Source: a virus. From it: a DNA stretch of 24,329 bases. Below, piece after piece: positions 2 through 22,650 of this stretch. Position 1 is the first letter of the stretch; the number at the start of each line of letters is the position of its first letter. The stretch is from positions 1-24,329 of the IMG/VR virus record IMGVR_UViG_3300025141_009680; one strand, 5' to 3'. The notes under the pieces are model-generated. The model had not been told where the DNA came from. It did no database searches and saw only the letters and a program-made list of their open reading frames with translations. Position numbers and translations under genes: made by a program.

Positions 2-112
2 TTCCCTGCTCTCGACCTCACGCCAGGCCGGAAGGTCAAGCCCGACGACAACCTTGCAGACGCTGCGCTGATAGCGGAGTGGGCTCGCAGAGTCCTCGGG
101 GGTGAGGGGTGA
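2..112 (+). CDS. C-terminal end of a possible RuvC-like resolvase (partial)
   Basis: An open frame runs from the window edge to a TGA at 110-112 and gives 36 residues. The segment [16 protein letters not shown] resembles the C-terminal acidic helix of RuvC-type Holliday junction resolvases and phage RuvC-like nucleases, where an Asp of the form D-A-x-x-x-A completes the metal site. The stop overlaps the GTG start of the next gene by four bases (GTGA), so the two were probably translated together. Only the tail is present, so the assignment rests on one motif and context; any phage DNA-metabolism protein is possible. Confidence 0.35.
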
Positions 113-1344
113 GGGGCTGGGAACTGAGGCAAGGTGACTGCGTCGAGCTGATGCGGGAGCTCCCCGAGAACTCGATCGACGCTATCGTCACCGATCCGCC
201 CTACGGCCTGAGTCCCGACGGGAAGGCCCGGACCTGGGACGACATCGAGGACGGCAAGGCTCGGGGCGGATTCATGGGCAAGGGCTGGGACGCTGCCGTC
301 CCTGGCGTGACCTGGGCTCGGGAGTGTCTGCGAGTGCTCAAGCCCGGCGGGCACATCGTGGCCTTCGGCGGGCAGCGGACGATCCACCGCCTGACCGTCT
401 CGCTGGAGGATGCCGATTTTCAGATTAGAGAATTATTTGGCTGGCTCAACTGGCAAGGCTTCCCAAAAAGTCTCGACGCTAGCAAGGCACTCGACGCGCA
501 CCACGGCGCAGAGCGGGAGGTGGTGGGGCGGTCCAAGCTAAACCCAAGAGATAAGCGGGCCTATACGCCCAAGGCTGCACCTAACTGGGCGGGCGACTTC
601 TCAAGCCCAGAGAAAGGCAACCTCATCACCGCCCCAGCAACCGAAGACGCCCGCACCTGGTCGGGCTTCGGCACCGCGCTCAAGCCTTGCCTGGAGCCTG
701 CGGTCATCGCTCGTAAGCCTCTGATCGGGACCGTCGCGGAGAACCTGCTTGAGTGGGGCACAGGGGCGCTGAACATCGACGGGTGCCGGTACGCATACGG
801 GGACGAGGCTTGGCCTGGGCCGGGGGATGCGCCCCCCGTTGGGAGGTCTGGAGCCTCCGCAGGGAGCCGGATCGGGATCAGCGTGAGCAACCCCGACGCC
901 TGGGACGTTCCCGACCTCGGTCGCTGGCCCGCGAACGTCTTCGCCACGCCGAAGGCATCGAGGGCCGAACGCGAGGCGGGCTGCGAGGGCTTGCCGGGCA
1001 GGACCGGAGCCGAGGCGGTCGAGCGCGAAGAGGGCAGCGCGGGAACGCAGAGCCCGAGAGCGGGGGCAGGGCGCACCGCTTCGACCGTCCGCAACCATCA
1101 TCCAACCGTCAAGCCTGTCCGCCTGATGCGCTGGCTTTGTGTCCTCGTCGGGTGCCAGCCTGGATCGTTGATCCTCGACCCCTTCGCCGGCTCGGGCACG
1201 ACGGGGATCGCAGCACTCCGCGCGGGCTTCCGCTTCCTCGGCATGGAGCGTGAGCCCGAGTACGTCGAGATCGCCCGAGCTAGGATCCGTGGCGACTCGC
1301 CGCTATTCAATCAAGAGAGGCCGGTGCTCGATGCCTCGCCCTAA
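109..1344 (+). CDS. beta-class DNA methyltransferase (N6-adenine or N4-cytosine)
   Basis: This 411-residue protein would transfer a methyl group from S-adenosylmethionine to an exocyclic amino group of adenine or cytosine in DNA. Catalytic motif IV, TDPPY, is at residues 28-32 near the N-terminus. HPTVKP is at about 331-336, and the SAM-binding motif [10 protein letters not shown] is at 357-366, followed by the acidic partner in GMERE. Motif IV before motif I is the permuted order of the beta class. DPPY is more usual in N6-adenine enzymes, but N4-cytosine cannot be excluded. The central 120-330 region would be the target-recognition domain. The start is the GTG at 109, coupled to the preceding gene by GTGA. 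No restriction endonuclease is visible, so it is probably an orphan enzyme used for anti-restriction or regulation. The 410-560 stretch is locally richer in A+T. Confidence 0.92.
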
Positions 1345-2510: not shown

Positions 2511-2654
2511 TCACTGGTAGAAGCTCTCGGGGGGCGCGGTTGGTCGTCCGTCCTGGGGTCCCATCCCCAGGCAAGACCGAGCGATCAACAGGCCGACGAC
2601 CAAAGCGATCAGGCACAGGAAGACCGCGACGTCTTCGGCTCGCTGATTCCTCAT
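2511..2654 (-). CDS. 47-residue single-pass membrane peptide in the lysis cassette
   Basis: The ATG at 2654 overlaps the endolysin stop codon (ATGA) and the frame runs to a TGA at 2511-2513. The peptide has a charged N-terminus (MRNQRAED), a hydrophobic helix at about residues 9-25, a cysteine in ARSC, and a proline-rich polar tail (GMGPQDGRPTAPPESFYQ). The overlap geometry and the good hydrophobic segment support it as a real gene. The layout of a membrane anchor, Cys and short Pro-rich tail recalls outer-membrane spanin lipoproteins, but ARSC is not a proper lipobox, so a small holin or anchor peptide is equally possible. Confidence 0.6.
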   Translation of the reverse strand: MRNQRAEDVAVFLCLIALVVGLLIARSCLGMGPQDGRPTAPPESFYQ

Positions 2655-3418
2655 TCAGCCCCGGCGATCCTAGCGTATGCCTCCCGCATTGCGGACGAAT
2701 AGCGGAGGACGTTTGGTCCGTTGCCGTTGTAAATCCTGGCGACTCTCACCCAGTCCTTATCACGGATCGCGCTGAGGAACCTAGGGTTCTCCCGCACCCA
2801 GGTAGCGAAGACGGCATAGGACACAGCCTCCGGCGAGGCGAAGAAGTTCAGCGTTGCTTCTGTGGGGTCGGGCCAGTGGCGGAGGAGAGCCCAGCCCATG
2901 ACCTGCCAGAGCCCCCAGCTCGTGGACTCGATAGCGTCTTGGGGTGCGAGGCTGAAGGCGTGATCGAATGCGGCGCGGTTGGTCTCTGCTGCCGTGGTGC
3001 TCCACGCTCCGCGAGATCCTCGAGTGTAGGGGATCTGCCCCTTCAGGTCTGGCCGCTTCCTCAAGAAGACGTGGGGCTCGAAGCGGGTCAGGTCTGGCCG
3101 ACTGCGCGATCCGGTCTCGACGTGGCGCAGGGCTTCGAGTGCTTCGGGCTCGATGCCTAGGGACGTGGCGACCTGGGCGACCATCTCGGGGATCGTGTTG
3201 GCTGGATCCCAGCCCCTCTCCTTCGCCGCGGCCTGGGTCTTCGGCCCGGCGATCCCGTCGACCGTCAGGCCGGCAGCCCCCTGAAAGATGCGGATCCCCT
3301 GGTCGGTGAGGGCTCCGGCTATCCCGTCGGCTGGGGGCTCCATCGCATTGCGGCCGATCAGGAACCTCTGAAAAGACTTGACCAGCTCGCCGCGACTTCC
3401 TCGGCGGATCGTGCTCAT
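2651..3418 (-). CDS. endolysin: peptidoglycan-binding domain plus N-acetylmuramidase
   Basis: A 255-residue cell-wall hydrolase. Residues about 5-66 form a PG_binding_1-like domain with two DGIAG units typical of that fold. Residues about 78-252 match the phage N-acetylmuramidase family (DUF3380 type): LRHVETGS with the likely catalytic Glu 101, then FEPHVF with Glu 114, the SWGLWQVMG motif at 167-175, and a terminal DWVRVARIYNGNGP at about 222-235. The enzyme would cleave the N-acetylmuramic acid to N-acetylglucosamine bond of peptidoglycan at the end of infection. No signal peptide is seen, so export should depend on a holin; candidates lie directly downstream. Start and stop both overlap neighbours by four bases (ATGA). 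Confidence 0.9.
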   Translation of the reverse strand: MSTIRRGSRGELVKSFQRFLIGRNAMEPPADGIAGALTDQGIRIFQGAAGLTVDGIAGPKTQAAAKERGWDPANTIPEMVAQVATSLGIEPEALEALRHVETGSRSRPDLTRFEPHVFLRKRPDLKGQIPYTRGSRGAWSTTAAETNRAAFDHAFSLAPQDAIESTSWGLWQVMGWALLRHWPDPTEATLNFFASPEAVSYAVFATWVRENPRFLSAIRDKDWVRVARIYNGNGPNVLRYSSAMREAYARIAGAE

Positions 3419-5233: not shown

Positions 5234-8200
5234 CTACACGATCTCAGAGATCGTGATCGTTCCGAGCCGATCTACGTCGGTCTTCTCTTCGTCGCCGAGG
5301 ATGTTCTGGCGAGAGTGATCAGACGTGATCCTCCCGTAGACGTAATGCCTCGGGTTGTTGGTCTGGTCGTCTGTAGACTCCGGCGCGATCCGGGCAAAGT
5401 AAACGACGGGAGAGACCGCCCCGCCCTGCCGTCGGAGCAGCCCATCCATCAGATAGATAGAATCCTTCACCGAGGCGATCCCGCCGCCGGCTGCACTGGC
5501 CGCTACATAGTCTGGAACCGGGTCGTCCTTGTTAATCTGTGTCGCGTCGACTCCGTCCGTCCACGAGAACTCGACCTCCCGCGCCGCAGGACCCATTCGG
5601 CTAGCTGCTGAAGATCCGTTGGGGAGCGTGAAGATCTCAGAGTTGGCCCGCGTCACGACCTGCCGCCCCCTCGCGTATTGTGTCCCGAAGATCGCGAGCG
5701 GGCCGATCAGGGCTTGGCCGATCTCAAAGTAACCGTCCGCAGTCGTCTGGGCTGGGATCCTCAGTCGGTAATAGCGGGCGGTCGGTGACTGGGAGTGGGC
5801 GATCCCCGCGGCGCTCGGCGCCCAGATCTCACAGTCTCCGCTCGTCGCCTCGGTGTCGTCGGCGCCCTCGAGGAAGATCGTCGGGTGCTTCGCGGCCTCC
5901 TCCGTCCACGCGCCCTCGGAGTTCTTCTCGATCTTCCTGTACTTCGTGTTCGTGGAGTCGACGAAGGTCCCGCCCTCCAACTCCTGATACATGATGTAGC
6001 GCCCCGCCTTGTGAGCCCCCCCTCCGGTCTCAGGATAGACGGTCTCCCCCTTCCGCTCGAACCTCAGAGAGGTGAAGCCCTCGGCGGCGTTGATCGTGCA
6101 AAGGGTCGTCCAGCCCGCCGCGTACTTCTCAAGGTATGCGGTCTTGAAGTTGATCCCCAGGAGGACAACCCCGAAGCTGTGGTTCTCGAGGTGACCATAG
6201 GCGAGCTCGGAGATGTCCCAAGCAATGATCTGCTCCGTCGCGTCCTTCGATCTCCACGCCGCCCGGGGGCTCTGAGCCACCGACGGGAAGACGTTCCTGA
6301 GGGGGTGAGAGTAGTCCGCGTCGATCTGCCACCTCTCCTTGTATCTCGTCGGGCCGGCGACCGCTGCGATCTTCACGTTGTCGAAGATCTCGGACGGCTG
6401 TGTACTGAAGCTCCGCGGGTGTAGATCTCCCGGGGTGCTCCACGAGTCCGCGAAGCCCGCGGAGGTCGGAGCCCATCGTCCCGGCCAGAAGCAGTAGCCC
6501 ACATAGCCCCATCGCGAGACGTCGCTCCCCGTCTTGTGATTTCCGAACGTCACCCGGGAGTTGTCGGCGTTTGCGCCCGCGTCGGACACGGCGCCCCCAG
6601 GACCCTCGGTCCACTCCCTGAATTGGTCGCGACGGGCATACCAGGTCTTGACGTTCCCTTTGTCCATCGCGATGCGGATATGTAACCGCTTTGTCATGTC
6701 CTCTGTGATCGCCGATCCGATCTGAGCCCCTGCCGTGATGTCCCGGAGCGCCCAGCCCGAGTCGGCTATGCAGACTGCGATCTCGTACTTGAAGCTGGAG
6801 GCATCAGAGATCCTGATCAGGAACCCGACATCTGTGTCCGTCAGCGATCCCGATCCCGCGTCGACCGAGACCCCTATCTCGGCGAATACGTCCTCCTGCT
6901 CGTTCCCGCTGCTGAACTCGCGAAAGAAGTACCGGGTGTTCGCTGTCGTGTCGATCTTCAGAACGCTACTCGCCAGATCGTCGGCCCCGGCGCCGCTCGC
7001 CGTCCACCCCACGCGCCGCGGATCCACGATCGGAAGATAGCCACCCCCGCCCGTGCTCGTGCTCGTGTTCTTGTTGAAGGCGACGTAGTCGGTGTCTTGG
7101 AAGTTCACCGTCCCGTGAGCCGCCGGCCCGGTGTGAGTCGAGAAGCCGCCAAGGTAGACGACGCCGAGAGACTGCGGATCTTCGTCTGAGCTGTCCGCCG
7201 TCCACCTACTGAGAACCACGACCTGGCCCGCGCTGGACGCCGCCGCGTAGGTGTCAAGCCTCGCCTCGGCAGTGTCGCCCGAGAAGTACGCCGCCTCGGA
7301 GAAGGTCGACCAAGTGTCGCCCCCGTCGTCGCTGCGGACGGGGTGGAGGTCATCGTCCGAGACATCTCGGCTCACCAGAGCGAACACTACGCCGCTATCG
7401 TCTCGCCACGAGGCGCACCCCGGCTTGGTGACGGAAACCATCCCGTTGTAGATGTCGACAGCGGTCGCCAAGAGAAGTCGGTCGTATGCCGATCCGATCC
7501 GCCGGCTCAAGTACTTGTTCGAGCCCGCCGCGGGGTCGGAGTGGTAGGTCATCAGGAAGGCTCCGTCAACCTCCACTAGATTGATCGCGAGCACCTCCTC
7601 GCTCCCATTCGTTACCCAGTCGTCCTCTACCTGGGTGAACCGCCCGCCGAGGTCATCGCTCGCATATTGGGCACAGTTCGACTTGGACGCGCCGTCCTCG
7701 AACTGGATCACCAAGAGCACCTCGCCCCCGCTATAGATCGCCCGCATCTGCCGGATGTCGTCGTTGCTGATCTTCGTATCAAGACAGCGGAACGAGTAGG
7801 GTTCCCAGTTCGCCCCGTCGTCGTCGGAGAAGTACACGTCGACCTGATCCCCCGAGGCGATGTACGCGAGAACGCGCCCGCTTGGAAGCTGGCAGAGGGC
7901 CGGTCCCTTCTGGGCTGTGGCGCTGTCCGGGGTCAGGGTTCCCGCCGTGCTCCACCCGCTGCCGGGCGTCGTCGTCGGATCGTAGATGCTGACGGTCTGG
8001 GCGAACGTGGTCTTGTGCTGGAGTCCGAGGGCTAGCAGCTTGCCCGACTGTAGTCGGATCACGTCGGGATAGGCCGACAGCTCGGAGGCGTCGTCAGACC
8101 AGAAGAGAGTTTCCCAGCCCGAGAGGAGTTGGGGTCCGTCCCATCCGTACTTGTCGGATTCCGCGGCTTCGTCTGACCAGAGATAGCCGGCCCGCTCGAG

Positions 8201-8437
8201 CCCGGGGTGTCCAGCTCGCGCCGACATCACCTCGACCGATCCGTTCGCGCTCTGGCCTCCGCTGGTTTGAAGGACCATCCTCGTCGACTGCTGCGCCTCT
8301 GGGATCCCTGGCTTCGCGGTGACCTGGGAATAGCTGCTCGGCGCCGTCGCGTGGGTGCTGCTCGTCAGGTTGTCGAGCCCAAAGCGCGGATCGGGGATCA
8401 AGATCCCTTGATACCTGTCTTTGACGAATTCGGTCAT
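5234..8437 (-). CDS. tail fibre or tip protein with sialidase-like beta-propeller
   Basis: A 1067-residue protein directly after the tape measure; its ATG shares one base with that gene's TGA (TGATG). Residues about 100-430 contain BNR/Asp-box repeats of the form S-x-D-x-G-x-x-W: SDDDGANW at 204-211, SDDGGDTW at 369-376, and a degenerate SDDLGGRF at about 260-267. These mark a multi-bladed beta-propeller of the sialidase superfamily. The rest is beta-rich, with no catalytic residues I can assign. I infer a receptor-binding or glycan-binding tail protein. Sialidase or other glycosidase activity is not shown, because Asp boxes are structural and not catalytic. Confidence 0.7.
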   Translation of the reverse strand: MTEFVKDRYQGILIPDPRFGLDNLTSSTHATAPSSYSQVTAKPGIPEAQQSTRMVLQTSGGQSANGSVEVMSARAGHPGLERAGYLWSDEAAESDKYGWDGPQLLSGWETLFWSDDASELSAYPDVIRLQSGKLLALGLQHKTTFAQTVSIYDPTTTPGSGWSTAGTLTPDSATAQKGPALCQLPSGRVLAYIASGDQVDVYFSDDDGANWEPYSFRCLDTKISNDDIRQMRAIYSGGEVLLVIQFEDGASKSNCAQYASDDLGGRFTQVEDDWVTNGSEEVLAINLVEVDGAFLMTYHSDPAAGSNKYLSRRIGSAYDRLLLATAVDIYNGMVSVTKPGCASWRDDSGVVFALVSRDVSDDDLHPVRSDDGGDTWSTFSEAAYFSGDTAEARLDTYAAASSAGQVVVLSRWTADSSDEDPQSLGVVYLGGFSTHTGPAAHGTVNFQDTDYVAFNKNTSTSTGGGGYLPIVDPRRVGWTASGAGADDLASSVLKIDTTANTRYFFREFSSGNEQEDVFAEIGVSVDAGSGSLTDTDVGFLIRISDASSFKYEIAVCIADSGWALRDITAGAQIGSAITEDMTKRLHIRIAMDKGNVKTWYARRDQFREWTEGPGGAVSDAGANADNSRVTFGNHKTGSDVSRWGYVGYCFWPGRWAPTSAGFADSWSTPGDLHPRSFSTQPSEIFDNVKIAAVAGPTRYKERWQIDADYSHPLRNVFPSVAQSPRAAWRSKDATEQIIAWDISELAYGHLENHSFGVVLLGINFKTAYLEKYAAGWTTLCTINAAEGFTSLRFERKGETVYPETGGGAHKAGRYIMYQELEGGTFVDSTNTKYRKIEKNSEGAWTEEAAKHPTIFLEGADDTEATSGDCEIWAPSAAGIAHSQSPTARYYRLRIPAQTTADGYFEIGQALIGPLAIFGTQYARGRQVVTRANSEIFTLPNGSSAASRMGPAAREVEFSWTDGVDATQINKDDPVPDYVAASAAGGGIASVKDSIYLMDGLLRRQGGAVSPVVYFARIAPESTDDQTNNPRHYVYGRITSDHSRQNILGDEEKTDVDRLGTITISEIV

Positions 8438-10935
8438 CAGGTCCCCGAGTACGGATTATGCCGCCCCAAGGCTCGGGGCTGGGCGGCGCGGAGTGCGTCG
8501 ACCAATGGTCCCTGCTTGGTGCGTAGGTTGTCCGAGACCATCGCGTCCACGGTGCGCGATCGTACCTTAAACACGGTGACGATCGGGGCTGAAGATGTGC
8601 CGCCCCTGTTGAGTTGGCGAACGCCATCGCTGCCCCCAGCTGCTCTCACTCCCTGCGGGCTCAGCACAGCCTCCGAGCGAAGTAGGCGCGCGCTGATCTC
8701 GTCGGGCGCACCAAGGGAGACCATGCCGCCAGCGTGGAAGGTCGGCGGAGGTTGCGCGGCGACCGTCGCCATCTGGATCCCACCGATCGTCAGGGCAGTC
8801 GCCATCATTCCGAGGCCTATCGGGGTTGTCCCGCCGCCAGAGACGAGACTCGCCATCGCAGCCTGTGCCGTGGAGATCGCTATCTCGGAGAGTCCGAGGG
8901 CCTTCTGGATAGCCCAGATCGCCATAGCGCCCGCCTTTTGGTCACCAAGCCTCTCTGCCGTCGCGTCCCGCTCAGCCTCTAGGAAGCTCTGAACGCTCTG
9001 CCTGTGATCCTCCTCGATCATTCGATCCAGCTCGGCGAGCCTGCTTGCTGTCTCGGACATCGACGCTTGAGCGTTCGCGGCGATCTCCGAGAACAGGCGG
9101 TCGATACTTCCAGCCATCTTGGATGCGAAGTCAGCGGAGTCGTCGAAGTCCTTCCGCACCCCCTCCATAGCCTCGCGCCAGGACTCCGCCACCGAGTCCG
9201 CCGCCTCCTTCTCCTCCTCCTTGATCAGGTCGAGGGCTTCCTTTCGCCGGTCTCCGAACTCATCCCTGATCCGAAGAAGGTCAAGGGCGAGGGCGTTCTC
9301 TATCTCCGCGATCTCGCTCGCTGTCCTGGCCTTGGTGTCGATCAGGTCTTGAGCGCGCTCCTCCGCCCGTCCTATCGCGAGCTGCTCCGCAGCGTCGACA
9401 GCCTCGATCCCATCGAGACGATCGACCCACTGATCCTCGAACGACTTCTTGACCTCGTCGGTGTAACGCTGGATCTCTGCAAGCCGCGCCTTGTTCGCAT
9501 CCCTGGCGGACTTCGCGGCAGCTTGCCGGCGAGCCCGATCTTCTTTGTCAAGTGCTGCCAGCTCCGCCCGCATCTGGAGAACCGCTTGGGTGTTCAGATT
9601 GGCGACTTCTTCCCATTGCTCTGTAGCAACACCCCACGAGACGAGAAGGTCGTGTGTCGCGTTATAGCGGGCGCGGATCGCGTCGGCTCCGGTGAGCAGC
9701 GATCCCCGCAGAGCATCGACCTTGGACGTGAGTTCGTCCACTCGGCGCAGTTCCGCCGGGTCTATGAGTTCGAGCCCCTCCTCGCCGCCGACCCCCTCCG
9801 CGTTCTGCGCGATCTGAGCGAGCTCCTCCTTCTGCTGCATGAGGGCGACGACTGTCGACTCTGCGACCCTGTGGTTCTCCTTTGCGACCTTGAGGTATCC
9901 CTCGAGCTCCTTGATATATTCGTCACTCGCCCAGGGGCGCTCCTTCTCGAGCTTCGCGGTCCACTTGTCGATCTTGACCTGCGCGGCCATGACGGCTGCC
10001 GACGCGTCCCAGATCTCACCCGCGATCCCCTCCCCCTCGGTCGGGATGGTCCCCTCTCCGAAGGCGTGCCGGATCCCAAGGGCCAGGTCCTCGAATGCCT
10101 CGGACATCTTCTGTAGGGTCGGCAGCCACGAGTCCACGGCAACCTTGAAGAACGCCCCAAGGTGAACCTTGAGCTTCTCCATCGAGTCTTTGAACTCCGC
10201 AGCTGCCTTAGCGTCCTCATCACTGAGGACCAGACCGAGAGCCCGGGCTTCGTCCTTCGCGCGGCGCATCCCCTCTGATCCGTCGTTCAGGACCAGAGCC
10301 ATCTTCGTTCCCGCCTCTTCCATGAGGCGCATAGAGATCGCGACCTTCGCAGGCCCCTCCGGCATCTTCTGATAAGCGTCGGCGAGATCTGCGAGGACGT
10401 CCTCTGTAGAGCGGACCTGATCCTCCGAGTCCTTCAACTCGATCCGCAGACCCTCGAAGATCCGAGCGGCGTCAGATGTCGGGTTCTGGACCGACTCGAA
10501 TATGACCTTTCCAAGACCCCGGAGCGAGTTCTGCAACTCCTCCTGGGTGACGCCCGCGAACTTCGCCTGATAGCTCAGAGCGGAGAGAGCCTCGACAGAA
10601 ATACCGAGCTGCTCCGACGTCTTGCCGAGACCGTCCGCAAAGTCAACCTGGGACTTGGTGACCTTCCCGATCGCGACTGCCGTCGCTGCGAGTGCCGCGG
10701 CGACCCCGAGCATCGTCTTCTTGAGAGCCCGGGCGTCGAACTTCACCTTCTTTAGGGAGAACGATCCCTTCTTGGCCCAAGTCCCGAAGTCCTTCGTCGC
10801 ACCCTTGAGGCCGGTCCCGATCTCCTCGACGTCCTTCGTCGTTTTCTTGCCGGTCTTCCCCAGGGACCGAAGGGCGGACTCTAGGTCCTTTGTGTCTCCC
10901 TCGAAGTGAAAGACGATGTCTCTACGATCTGCCAT
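8437..10935 (-). CDS. tail tape measure protein
   Basis: An 832-residue protein. Near the N-terminus are a hydrophobic Ala-rich segment (AAALAATAVAIGKV) and the segment FADGLGKTSEQLGISVEALSALSYQAKFAG (given here in outline), which is typical of phage tape measure proteins. A long, mostly helical coiled-coil middle follows, then a hydrophobic C-terminal region ending in FHAGGMVSLG. The protein sets tail length and fills the tube before DNA ejection. Using the known rule of about 0.15 nm per residue, the tail would be roughly 120-130 nm. It lies two bases after the frameshifted chaperone gene, the conserved order in siphophages. The ribosome-binding site is weak. Confidence 0.88.
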   Translation of the reverse strand: MADRRDIVFHFEGDTKDLESALRSLGKTGKKTTKDVEEIGTGLKGATKDFGTWAKKGSFSLKKVKFDARALKKTMLGVAAALAATAVAIGKVTKSQVDFADGLGKTSEQLGISVEALSALSYQAKFAGVTQEELQNSLRGLGKVIFESVQNPTSDAARIFEGLRIELKDSEDQVRSTEDVLADLADAYQKMPEGPAKVAISMRLMEEAGTKMALVLNDGSEGMRRAKDEARALGLVLSDEDAKAAAEFKDSMEKLKVHLGAFFKVAVDSWLPTLQKMSEAFEDLALGIRHAFGEGTIPTEGEGIAGEIWDASAAVMAAQVKIDKWTAKLEKERPWASDEYIKELEGYLKVAKENHRVAESTVVALMQQKEELAQIAQNAEGVGGEEGLELIDPAELRRVDELTSKVDALRGSLLTGADAIRARYNATHDLLVSWGVATEQWEEVANLNTQAVLQMRAELAALDKEDRARRQAAAKSARDANKARLAEIQRYTDEVKKSFEDQWVDRLDGIEAVDAAEQLAIGRAEERAQDLIDTKARTASEIAEIENALALDLLRIRDEFGDRRKEALDLIKEEEKEAADSVAESWREAMEGVRKDFDDSADFASKMAGSIDRLFSEIAANAQASMSETASRLAELDRMIEEDHRQSVQSFLEAERDATAERLGDQKAGAMAIWAIQKALGLSEIAISTAQAAMASLVSGGGTTPIGLGMMATALTIGGIQMATVAAQPPPTFHAGGMVSLGAPDEISARLLRSEAVLSPQGVRAAGGSDGVRQLNRGGTSSAPIVTVFKVRSRTVDAMVSDNLRTKQGPLVDALRAAQPRALGRHNPYSGT

Positions 10936-10937
10936 GT

Positions 10938-11749
10938 CTAGTTATCCCCGCCCATCCAGAAGTTCACCGCGCTGTCGCTTGCGCCGTCCTTCGACATCGC
11001 CCGGCGGACCGATTGGTCGGTTGCGCCATTCCGCCCGCTCGCCGCTCTGCCGGCCTTGCTGGGGTGAGTGAGGAGCCACGCCTCGAGGAGGTCGCCCAGA
11101 GACGCGGGGAGAGACAGCGCGCGCCGAAGAGCCTCGGGAGGGGCTGGCTCGTCGTCGATCTTCGCGGGCTGCATCATCTGCTCCGTCGCGTGCGTCAAGT
11201 GCCAGTAGGCGAACAGTTTCGCCTGCGTCTCCTTGTCGTGCTTCCAATAGCCATGGGGATCACCGCCCAGAAGGTTTAGGCCGATATCAAGTCTGACGAG
11301 ATCTCCGAAGCCTTCTGGGCTTCCCCAAAATTTATAGTGCTCTCCGGCGAGGTCAGGATCGACCCGAACCTCTTCGCCAGCTCCGCCGCCCAAGGGGCAA
11401 GGTGGACCGTGCCGCTTATCCCCTCCTCGTGGAACTCCTCGAGGACCTGCTCTCCGTAGGCGAGCCAGTCACCTCCGCGCCGCGGCTTCTCTGTCTCGAG
11501 GATCCTGGTCGGATCCCACCAAGACGCGCCGACGATCGCCGCCAGGGCATCGACAGATCCACCGAAGCTCAGACCGTCGTCGAGGACTGAGAAGCGGGAG
11601 AGCGTCTCGATCAGCTCGACCACGATCCGATCGTTAGGCAGCCGGAACCACTGGACCGGAAGACCCTCTAACTCGATCTCGAAGTAGAGCGGGTTCGCCT
11701 GACCGTCAGGCCGGCGAGGGACCGCTCGGGGTTCCTTTAGGTTCTTCAT
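10938..11749 (-). CDS. tail assembly chaperone GT, -1 frameshift product
   Basis: The frame from 11327 to the TAG at 10938-10940 lies at -1 relative to the upstream chaperone gene and has no good start of its own. A -1 slip at AAATTTT (11333-11327) would join residues 1-141 of the upstream protein to 129 residues beginning WGSPEGFGDLV, giving a 270-residue fusion. Lambda gpG and gpGT work the same way: a minor frameshifted product recruits the tape measure protein and tail tube subunits. The extension ends with FWMGGDN two bases before the tape measure gene, the conserved position. The frame is also open upstream to 11393, but that part overlaps the G frame and is not needed. Confidence 0.75.
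11276..11749 (-). CDS. tail assembly chaperone G-like protein
   Basis: A 157-residue, mildly acidic, mostly helical protein between the tail tube gene and the tape measure gene, the slot of lambda gpG. The ATG at 11749 is preferred to an in-frame start at 11833 because the extra codons are Arg/Pro-rich shadow sequence inside the preceding gene; the preferred start still overlaps that gene by 44 bases. Core features are LYFEIELEGLPVQWFRLP at the N-terminus and IVGASWWDPTRIL in the middle. The last 16 codons lie past the slippery heptamer, so a fraction of ribosomes would leave this frame. Primary sequence is too divergent to name a family with certainty; the call rests on position plus frameshift. 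Confidence 0.7.
   Translation of the reverse strand: MKNLKEPRAVPRRPDGQANPLYFEIELEGLPVQWFRLPNDRIVVELIETLSRFSVLDDGLSFGGSVDALAAIVGASWWDPTRILETEKPRRGGDWLAYGEQVLEEFHEEGISGTVHLAPWAAELAKRFGSILTSPESTINFGEAQKASEISSDLISA
11307..11333 (-). promoter_or_regulatory. programmed -1 ribosomal frameshift site
   Basis: On the minus strand the G frame reads ATA AAT TTT GGG, so the heptamer A_AAT_TTT (11333-11327) is in the exact X_XXY_YYZ register for tandem -1 slippage to AAA TTT. Three bases later GAAGCC (11323-11318) pairs with GGCTTC (11312-11307) around a CAGAA loop, a plausible stimulatory hairpin. The spacer of three bases is a little shorter than the usual five to eight. Confidence 0.75.
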
Positions 11750-11888
11750 TCTTCCCACCCTTCTTGGCCTTGGCCTTTGCCTTGGCCTCCAGTTCCTTGA
11801 TCCGGGCCGTGCGGCGGACCCGAACCCCGTCAATAAAGCACCACTGCCCGCCCGATGCTTTGAGCTTCTTCAGTTCCGCGGCGCTCAT
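11706..11888 (-). CDS. small Lys/Ala-rich protein, function unknown
   Basis: A 60-residue protein whose ATG shares one base with the stop of the tail tube gene (TGATG), so it is probably translated by coupling. Residues about 1-30 contain LKKLKASGGQWCFIDGVRVRRTARIKELE. The second half is a basic low-complexity helix (AKAKAKAKKGG) ending in a Pro/Ser-rich tail. It lies in the slot between tail tube and chaperone, where siphophages often carry a small variable gene. No family is recognised. Confidence 0.6.
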   Translation of the reverse strand: MSAAELKKLKASGGQWCFIDGVRVRRTARIKELEAKAKAKAKKGGKNEEPKGTPSGPSPA

Positions 11889-12388
11889 CAGGTGATCGAC
11901 GTCGGCAGGACCGCGTAGCTCGTGATCGAAATATTGATCGTATCTGGGTCGCCCTCTCCGAGCGATCCGGTAACGACGCAGAAGGGGACCGTCAGCGAGT
12001 GATCGCTCGCGTCCCCGTGGTCGGTTCCCTCGATCAGCCAGCCAAGGTCAAGCGTGAAGACCTCGGCATTGGCTCCGAGGGTCGAGACCCAGGAGGATCC
12101 CACGTCACCCGACTGGAGGAGGATCTCTTCGAGGGTCGCATACCCAGCATCGGACAGGTCGCGCAGATAAGCGGTGAAGGTCGCGGTCATCGCCTGGTCG
12201 TCAGACTTCCGCAGGGACGGGGTGGCCCCGAACTCACCGCGGTCGAGGTTGGCGACGATGCTCGGGCCGGGAATTGAGAGGTTGAAGTCCCCAGCCTCGA
12301 ACGCGATCACGAGCGTATTCGCCGCCCCGCTGTCCGAGAACGTGAGCTTACCGTCTCGCTTGGTCTTGACTACTGTGGAATAAGCCAT
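11888..12388 (-). CDS. major tail tube protein
   Basis: A 166-residue beta-rich protein starting MAYSTVVKTKRDGKLTFSD. The content FEAGDFNLSIPG, the central TATFTAYLRDLSD, and the closing DTINISITSYAVLPTSIT alternate as expected for a tail tube subunit that stacks in hexameric rings around the tape measure. A good ribosome-binding site (GAGGAG, nine bases from the ATG) agrees with the high expression such a protein needs. Position just before the chaperone pair and tape measure supports the call. Length is typical of short tube proteins. Sequence identity to a named family is not obvious by eye. Confidence 0.72.
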   Translation of the reverse strand: MAYSTVVKTKRDGKLTFSDSGAANTLVIAFEAGDFNLSIPGPSIVANLDRGEFGATPSLRKSDDQAMTATFTAYLRDLSDAGYATLEEILLQSGDVGSSWVSTLGANAEVFTLDLGWLIEGTDHGDASDHSLTVPFCVVTGSLGEGDPDTINISITSYAVLPTSIT

Positions 12389-21294: not shown

Positions 21295-22650
21295 CTATCG
21301 GATGCGGATCTTCCTCTCGTCCTTGTGACGAGTGTCGAGGAACTCTCGGCAGATGTAGCGCGAGGCGTCGAGGATGTGGCTCAGGTCCTTGTTCGCCGCG
21401 TTGCCCCCTGGTCCCCGCCAGTGACGGAGGCCGGCTATCAGAGAGGCGCATCGAGGATGGACGGTCACCGACCCCCGGACCATCGCAGCGTGGAGGAGTC
21501 GGGAGGTGTAGGCGACCGAGCCCGGACCCTTGCGAGCCGGGAGGATCTTGAAGGGGGGCTCTGTCGGGGGCAGCCCGGAGACTGCGGCGATCTTCTGCTC
21601 GAGTAGGTGATTGACCCGGTAGCCCACCTCGGACTTGCCCGCGGAGTTCGTGTCTCCTCTCGCCAGGTCCACAGCCTCCGGCCCGACGTCCCACCGACCG
21701 AGCATGTCGAGGATCCCGTTCGCGTCGGCCTCGATCCCAGTCCGCCCGGGGCTCGTGTACTCGTCCAGGAACCAGACCTTGGGGTCGACCTTGTCACGCT
21801 TGAAGGCGACCAGGACCGCAGCCTCTCGGCCCGCGTCCTCTCCGTGGTCGACGCCGATCCCGATCTGGACCTCGTCGCCGGGTAGCTCTTCGCTGATCAT
21901 CGAGTCGACGAAGGCGGCGAAGTAGCGGTCTGGGCTGATCCCCTCCCAGGCGCCGAAGAACCTCTGGTGGAGCTCGGCGGGGAGGATCATCTTTCGGATC
22001 TCCTCCAGCTCCGCCGCGCTGAGCCCGGTGTTCTCTGTGGACGGCTGGACGTGGATATCCTCCGCCCTCCCGTCCTCGCACGCTTGCTTGAGCCAGCCAC
22101 AGGGGCGACCGACGGGGGTGAGGGTTAACCAGATCGAACCCTTGCGAACAATCACCCGAGACTGGGCCTCGGCGAAGATCCTCTCCTCCGGGGGCTCGTC
22201 CAGCCAGACGAAGTCCAGGGTCGACCCGGCAGCGGCGAGGACGCCCGCGGACTGCGAGACGATGCCCATCGAGTCGCCGCTCCTCAGTCGCAACATCCGA
22301 CGACGCCCGACCGTAAAGCCTCGGTCCGGGTGATAGCGGCAGTCGGGATGGAGCAGGCCAGGGGGGAGCAGCTCGTGCAGCTTGCTCTCGATCTCCTTGC
22401 TGCTGTCGTCGGAGTAGGGAACCAGGCGACCGGCTACGGGGCGATCGGGGATGGTCCGGTGAGGGTGGGTGTGAGTTAGCCAGTACAGAGCCTCGGCGCA
22501 TCCCGCGTAGCTCTTCCCGACGATCTGGTTAGGCCCCCGGAGGCATCTCGTCTGCGACTGGCTTCGGTGGAACCTCTCCTGTCCCGGCCTCGGCTGGTAG
22601 GTGGCGAGTGGGTTCGAGGTGATGGCGGCGAGGGCTGAGGCCAGGCTCAC
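21295..22650 (-). CDS. terL: terminase large subunit (TerL)
   Basis: A 451-residue packaging motor with ATPase and nuclease domains. In the ATPase, a Walker A-like RGPNQIVGKS is at residues 38-47, Walker B FVWLDEP is at 148-153 and the coupling motif LTLTP is at 175-179. In the RNase H-like nuclease, candidate metal ligands are Asp 268 in IGVDHG, Asp 328 or 333 in VDLARGD, and Asp 428 in SHILDASRYI. It cuts concatemeric DNA and pumps it through the portal. The GTG start follows the TerS stop directly (TAG then GTG). The loop has no Gly before the usual GK(S/T), an Asn-Gln-Ile-Val version seen in some terminases. Confidence 0.92.
   Translation of the reverse strand: MSLASALAAITSNPLATYQPRPGQERFHRSQSQTRCLRGPNQIVGKSYAGCAEALYWLTHTHPHRTIPDRPVAGRLVPYSDDSSKEIESKLHELLPPGLLHPDCRYHPDRGFTVGRRRMLRLRSGDSMGIVSQSAGVLAAAGSTLDFVWLDEPPEERIFAEAQSRVIVRKGSIWLTLTPVGRPCGWLKQACEDGRAEDIHVQPSTENTGLSAAELEEIRKMILPAELHQRFFGAWEGISPDRYFAAFVDSMISEELPGDEVQIGIGVDHGEDAGREAAVLVAFKRDKVDPKVWFLDEYTSPGRTGIEADANGILDMLGRWDVGPEAVDLARGDTNSAGKSEVGYRVNHLLEQKIAAVSGLPPTEPPFKILPARKGPGSVAYTSRLLHAAMVRGSVTVHPRCASLIAGLRHWRGPGGNAANKDLSHILDASRYICREFLDTRHKDERKIRIR

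Follow-up and report, generated by a model that had tools for sequence, protein, structure and literature searches.

How does a virus whose tail genes include a short reading frame overlapped by a second one, just ahead of the tape measure gene, make a product from that second frame? The question is raised by an IMG/VR virus record of 24,329 bases with about 62-67% GC, the whole of which we call the window. In phage lambda the G/GT shift site is G_GGA_AAG, and G/GT-type frameshifting is said, after Xu et al. in 2004 (cited in PMC5009743), to be conserved in dsDNA phages. The comparisons described here lead us to regard a programmed -1 frameshift in the tail chaperone gene of the window, which would give G and GT in the manner of lambda, as highly probable.

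Overlapping frames and a slippery heptamer upstream of the tape measure gene

The structural genes of the window lie on the minus strand (Table 1), in the order putative major tail protein, 60-aa lysine-rich ORF, G, T and tape measure. Running without a stop from 11468, the -1 frame overlaps the end of the G frame and closes at 10938. Its stop codon, TAG at 10940-10938, is located two bases before the ATG (10935) of the 832-aa tape measure gene, in agreement with a preliminary description of this DNA, and two overlapping frames thus stand directly upstream of the tape measure gene, as expected of a G/GT pair. No Pfam or PHROG match was found for the putative major tail protein and no Pfam match for the 60-aa ORF, and the 24,329 bases gave no Rfam match and no tRNA. 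In one relative (L024) a longer lysine-rich ORF occupies the position equivalent to that of the 60-aa ORF. Extra genes separate the putative major tail protein from G/T in L044/L045 and in L034 (about 3.6 kb in L044 and about 1 kb in L034), and the order is compact elsewhere. The muramidase gene is likely to encode the endolysin.

Table 1. Positions of features in the window
Feature	Positions	Strand	Remarks
DNA N6/N4 methyltransferase gene	109-1344	+	PF01555, E 3.3e-28; opposite strand to structural genes
Muramidase with peptidoglycan-binding domain	2651-3418	-	PF11860, PF01471
Tail length tape measure protein	8437..10935	-	Directly downstream of T; PHROG tape measure families, e.g. phrog_8462 E 2.3e-31; PF10145 E 5.3e-9
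T extension, -1 frame after the putative slip	10938..11327	-	129 codons, TGG (W) to TAG; homologous T frames align from slot onward
Longer alternative hairpin, 10-bp stem GCCCAGAAGG/CCTTCTGGGC	11265..11320	-	Begins 6 nt past heptamer; possible stimulator, no covariation support
Gene G, putative tail assembly chaperone, zero-frame product	11276..11749	-	157 aa; stop TAA 11278-11276; G homologues in 30 lineages; AlphaFold model, VIA-align neighbours
Short hairpin GAAGCC/GGCTTC of the preliminary description	11307..11323	-	Arms 11323-11318 and 11312-11307; 3 nt after heptamer
Slippery heptamer A_AAT_TTT	11327..11333	-	X_XXY_YYZ register; same slot in relatives
GGAGAG, weak Shine-Dalgarno-like stretch	11340..11345	-	Ends 6 nt before heptamer; anti-SD duplex -6.6 kcal/mol; possible stimulator
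60-aa lysine-rich ORF	11706..11888	-	Start/stop overlaps with its two neighbours, putative major tail protein and G
Putative major tail protein	11888..12388	-	Role assigned by position alone; homologues at 44 IMG/VR loci
Terminase large subunit	21295-22650	-	Distant relatives only among named phages

The heptamer AAATTTT had been described as lying in exact X_XXY_YYZ register, and the zero-frame codons at 11333-11327 and around them, ATA AAT TTT GGG, bear this out: the site is correctly placed for a -1 shift into the second frame. The last base of the heptamer is the T of TGG, the first codon of the T extension, and slippage at this point would join 141 residues to 129, reproducing by computation the 270-residue fusion that had been proposed. 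AAATTTT is the only in-register X_XXY_YYZ heptamer in the window's G gene. Sixteen chosen window genes contain seven in-register XXXYYYZ heptamers in 5702 codons, the other six all being CCCGGGN or CCCCCCN, a rate that predicts about 0.08 for the 190 nt of the overlap.

Relatives of the tail genes

Neither the G nor the T frame matched any of 50,697 phage records, and neither could be placed in a Pfam or PHROG family, where only weak hits with one member each were obtained. The G and putative major tail proteins of the relatives had no match in the phage collection either, and scans of genome contigs found no relative. Searching IMG/VR with terminase and tail-protein queries turned up relatives. 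With a profile built on the putative major tail protein we recovered 44 loci, in 37 of which the G/T region could be read; six of the other seven are cut off (L023, L025, L050, L054, L058, L069), and L046 has neither frame before the contig ends. Five duplicate loci (L035, L042, L045, L052, L056) were left out. The 32 relatives and the window together provide 33 sites, or 30 lineages after dereplication at >90% nucleotide identity. We chose the slots by eye in the last part of G, in six loci following a T-profile search, and then checked them by alignment; the slot count is not blind. L039 and L047 stop within T. Of the 33 sites, 21 are in the T alignment, and the alignment of downstream RNA holds 12 of the 30 lineages.

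The terminase matched 14 of the 50,697 phage records, including Arthrobacter and Pseudomonas phages, at <60% identity, and the stretches viewed in two named records among these matches carry no comparable tail annotation. Since the terminase has distant relatives among named phages and searches with the tail genes found none, the window is probably a mosaic genome.

A conserved place with a changing heptamer

In 29 of the 30 lineages the second frame is in the -1 relation and a slip-prone heptamer occupies the same slot. Twelve lineages have a canonical heptamer: A_AAT_TTT (window, L041, L065), G_GGA_AAT (L040, L057), G_GGA_AAC (L024, L049, L070, L071, L074), G_GGT_TTC (L038) or G_GGT_TTT (L048). 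Fifteen have G_GAT_TTY, with T as the last base in 12 and C in 3. One has G_AAT_TTT (L068), one has C_GAT_TTT (L044, where a following TTG creates an overlapping in-register T_TTT_TTG), and one has a +1 relation. Close relatives of the window, such as L036 and L040, carry G_GAT_TTT or G_GGA_AAT at the slot. The background is low: upstream of the slot in the same G genes, XXXYYYZ occurs in register 7 times in 3270 codons and GGATTTY not at all, and in long ORFs of the same loci the counts are 73 and 4 in 37,503 codons.

When 21 T parts are aligned, the slots fall in one place, with an invariant glycine 4-6 residues further on, and G always reaches a stop codon of its own 0-84 nt past the slot. 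On a tree built from the tail protein and G, with the slot codons excluded, the slot changed type at least 15 times, site class at least 11 times, and between AA and TT in the A site at least 5 times. Conservation of the heptamer in relatives, which had been suggested as a check, therefore fails for the exact sequence. Loss of the heptamer together with a strong start for the second frame in homologues had been named as grounds for giving up the frameshift; the heptamer does vary, but its variants are shift-prone and no second start is conserved. Judged from the alignments, what is conserved is a slip-prone heptamer at a fixed place, and not the exact heptamer.

In the single exceptional locus, L064 (5820-6100, slot near 5896-5902), the frame of T is +1 with respect to that of G, and the slot reads AGC_TTT_CCT. 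On a TTT with C after it, tRNA-Phe could slip by +1. An exact-pattern scan for this slot returned only the same contig, and a single contig may contain an assembly error.

Which part of the site matters?

The A/T-type heptamer had at first been said to stand out in a GC-rich genome. As a bacterial shift site it is not odd: A_AAT_TTT is a member of the H_HH.U_UU.Y class, whose heptamers are among the most efficient shift sites in E. coli, with cognate re-pairing in the A site as the most important factor (PMC4066793). This weight on the A site fits the T_TTY common to 22 of the 30 lineages. Against such a fit are the five lineages with G_GGA_AAC, a heptamer that shifts with low efficiency in E. 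coli but is likely to be used by IS elements (PMC4066793).

The same observations invite a refinement of the frameshift reading, short of a full rival, in which the A-site tetramer T_TTT alone matters, by a single slip of tRNA-Phe, and AAT in the P site adds little. It would account for A-site T_TTY recurring in those 22 lineages beside a variable P-site codon (GAT, AAT or GGT). Precedents can be found in the cited texts: the Pea enation mosaic virus (PEMV) site kept 36-40% of its frameshifting without P-site re-pairing and fell to near background when the U run was lost (PMC4737148), and U_UU.C and U_UU.U function as tetramers in E. coli when a stimulator is present (PMC4066793). However, tetramers in E. 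coli are about ten-fold below the best heptamers (PMC4066793), and the G_GGA_AAY sites of seven lineages permit re-pairing in both the P and the A site. We consider the tetramer-only version possible, if on the unlikely side.

Codon-phase evidence for a frame change at the slot

We compared 18 related pairs base by base and summed seven that do not overlap (L055/L063, L060/L061, L038/L043, L070/L071, L036/L039, window/L040, L065/L066). In the 90 nt upstream of the slot, differences at G codon positions 1, 2 and 3 numbered 52, 43 and 106. Between the slot and the G stop they numbered 5, 24 and 9, and past the G stop 28, 66 and 31. Position 2 of a G codon is position 3 of a T codon in the overlap beyond the slot. 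Most pairs show the third-position bias before the slot, which is slight in the most diverged ones (L024/L049 and L037/L043, for example). In the 21 aligned T parts, conservation of the T frame likewise starts at the slot. The codon-phase counts and the T alignment together indicate selection at the protein level on the second frame from the slip site on. The switch of phase can be read without assuming anything about the heptamer, and no other observation points as strongly to a change of frame by ribosomes at the slot.

The second frame had been described as lacking a good start, and this too is upheld. Before the slot in the window, the only start in the -1 frame is TTG 11393, with weak anti-SD pairing (-2.9 kcal/mol). 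No T-frame start lies within 90 nt of the slot in 14 of the 30 lineages. In the remainder the starts differ in place and codon, and their SD pairing is mostly weak, the strongest being -6.2 kcal/mol (L034). The second frame is thus without a conserved start of its own.

These data bear on the possibility that T is a separate gene, translated without any frameshift from an internal start by re-initiation or coupling. Candidate starts do exist in the window, namely the TTG 60 nt upstream of the slot and an ATGATG pair near 11178-11173 with GGAG shortly upstream. Yet a start of the first kind has no consistent counterpart among the lineages, the conserved part of T reaches back to the slot, ahead of any downstream start, and initiation at the ATG near 11178 would forfeit the conserved SPEG...DP part. 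We regard an internal start as very improbable. Slippage by RNA polymerase, and not by the ribosome, appears less probable again: a mixed A3T4G4 run is present, but its component runs are only 3-4 bases long, as against the 9 A or T given for bacterial slippage in PMC5009743, and what relatives keep is the codon register and the logic of a two-codon slip (GGA_AAC, GAT_TTT, AAT_TTT), not run length. That an indel from assembly or sequencing in TTTTGGGG, where the slot adjoins runs of T4 and G4, has split one gene into G and T has next to no probability given the same -1 relation in 29 of 30 lineages, many of them separately assembled metagenome contigs with differing slot sequences, and the G stop that always follows within 84 nt. 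The proposal of a -1 frameshift leading to a G-T fusion is supported by the comparison on three counts: the 29 slots, the switch in codon phase and the want of a conserved second start.

Candidate stimulators upstream and downstream of the slot

The preliminary description drew attention to the GAAGCC/GGCTTC hairpin. It is present with its 3-base spacer, but its standing as a special or conserved element did not survive: the arms are intact in L036 and have one mismatch in L039/L028 and in L040/L029, which leaves two of three close relatives mismatched, and folding does not rise above the codon null. Relative to nulls with synonymous codons, downstream folding in the window gave z scores of +0.4 (70 nt) and +1.7 (50 nt), no stronger than the codons predict.

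Folds of individual sequences predict long hairpins about 6-9 nt past the slot in many relatives and in the window, but in shifted registers. We rejected the long hairpin as a conserved stimulator. Besides the register shifts, RNAalifold predicted 0 pairs in the 12 downstream rows, and the family mean folding z just past the slot (-1.13 to -1.17) is nearly matched by control windows in G (-0.82 and -0.83), with values of about -0.3 further into T. Downstream structure may still act as a possible stimulator.

Most relatives have an internal Shine-Dalgarno-like stretch about 12 bases upstream of the slot. When anti-SD energies were averaged over the 30 lineages, 8-nt windows starting at -21 to -18 formed a sharp peak, at about -7 versus about -2 kcal/mol nearby. 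The peak is mostly carried by Glu-Glu-Val-like residues. Compared with synonymous recodings, 0 of 200 reached the observed mean (-8.21 versus -6.41, sd 0.46), and the same 0 of 200 came from one control shift (-30) among 13. Some G genes contain a near-perfect Shine-Dalgarno in the 8-nt windows that start 21-18 nt upstream of the slot, for example AAGGAGGT in L037, L043 and L047. The window and three near relatives have no SD-like element at the family spacing and instead carry GGAG or GAGG 4-7 nt from the heptamer; anti-SD duplexes at about the same place as in the window amount to -9.5 (L036), -5.9 (L039) and -6.3 (L040). The element is weak too in L057 and L070, outside the window's clade. 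Taken across the family, these results are supportive of the upstream Shine-Dalgarno-like stretch as a stimulator, weak and displaced in the window.

Predicted fold of the G protein

An AlphaFold2 model of G built on a 30-row alignment had a pLDDT of 88.6 and a pTM of 0.78. Foldseek against solved structures gave no significant match (best E 1.7); 2ob9, the tail assembly chaperone of HK97, ranked fifth (E 2.4). VIA-align on the Foldseek candidates scored 3fgx_A at Z 6.5, 2ob9_A at 5.7, 3klu at 5.0 and 5ir0_B at 4.9, with unrelated rows at 2.5 or below; a Z under 8 is not proof of fold. We take 3fgx and 3klu to be chaperones. Predicted viral structures gave one strong match for G, an uncharacterised protein of a marine virus (E 3.7e-9), and several weak ones that bear the name tail assembly chaperone or GT, N15 GT among them. 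A profile match of G to 21nr_A (E 3.7e-7), with 0 stretches passing over 26 residues, was taken as chance. The model fits a chaperone fold.

Comparison with known shift sites

The locus resembles lambda G/GT in gene order, in its short G with T in the -1 frame, in a slip near the end of G, and in a T that lacks its own start and ends at the tape measure gene. In contrast, the searches made found no sequence relationship to lambda, and the heptamer is A_AAT_TTT here and mostly G_GAT_TTT in the relatives.

Closer counterparts of the sites themselves come from plant viruses. G_GAU_UUU was established by mutation as the shift site of PEMV RNA2, and Groundnut rosette and Ethiopian tobacco bushy top viruses have A_AAU_UUU at the same place (PMC4737148). 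G_GAT_TTT and A_AAT_TTT are thus interchangeable at one homologous slot in umbraviruses as in this family, and the G_GGT_TTT of L048 has a counterpart in G_GGU_UUU of BYDV. The umbraviruses are, however, plant RNA viruses that use eukaryotic ribosomes and downstream RNA elements, and share no homology with the phages; the two groups appear to have converged on the same interchangeable sites. Among bacterial systems, the E. coli dnaX cassette (SD, A_AAA_AAG and stem loop; PMC5009743) is comparable in having an SD-like stretch upstream, as most relatives do. It differs in its heptamer and product logic and in its stem loop, for which covariation gives no counterpart here, and the window's SD is weak and nearer.

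PRFect describes a 'twoonefour' motif in SEA-PHAGES tail chaperones (PMC10885494). The name may refer to G_GAT_TTT, which GG-A-TTTT would fit; GGATTTT itself has 0 occurrences in the main text of that paper. In the literature searched, no paper linked GGATTTT, frameshifting and phage. The AAATTTT frameshift motif in PMC10299305 belongs to a hydrolase gene, not a tail gene.

Proposed mechanism and implications

Most likely, the window comes from a virus of bacteria that makes two versions of a tail-building helper protein by means of a one-base ribosomal slip. Most ribosomes would read G to its TAA and release the 157-aa chaperone. A minority, with tRNA-Asn on AAT and tRNA-Phe on TTT, would slip back one base to AAA and TTT, enter the T frame and produce the 270-aa GT fusion, so that many G and few GT are made. 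In lambda, gpG and gpGT bind the tape measure protein and the T part recruits the tail shaft subunit (PMC5009743). By this analogy, G would form a coat on the tape measure protein, and GT would bring in the major tail subunit through its T part; slippage, its efficiency and these roles are what we infer for the window.

In kind, the locus is by its sequence an ordinary member of the G/GT frameshift class, in a new family of uncultivated phages. A broader joint reading seems to us evenly poised. It holds that the usual site of the family, G_GAU_UUU, which is not of the X_XXY_YYZ form, would work on bacterial ribosomes with an upstream Shine-Dalgarno stimulator; that only the place of the slip is conserved, its at least 15 turnovers converging on the umbravirus and BYDV forms (G_GAU_UUU, A_AAU_UUU, G_GGU_UUU); and that L064 (AGC_TTT_CCT) has reversed to +1.

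The findings also carry a caution, in that exact conservation of a heptamer or hairpins nearby are poor judges of such sites, and gene callers that split GT call for the same care. The list of lambda-type tail recoding gains a phage family without a match in the collection of named phages. Of further interest are the turnover of the slot, the predominance of a non-canonical site and one possible change of direction, in L064. With place alone conserved, the slot variants form a natural series in which the A-site tetramer, P-site re-pairing and the upstream SD can be set against one another, and thereby offer a direct way of finding out what selection retains in a bacterial shift site.
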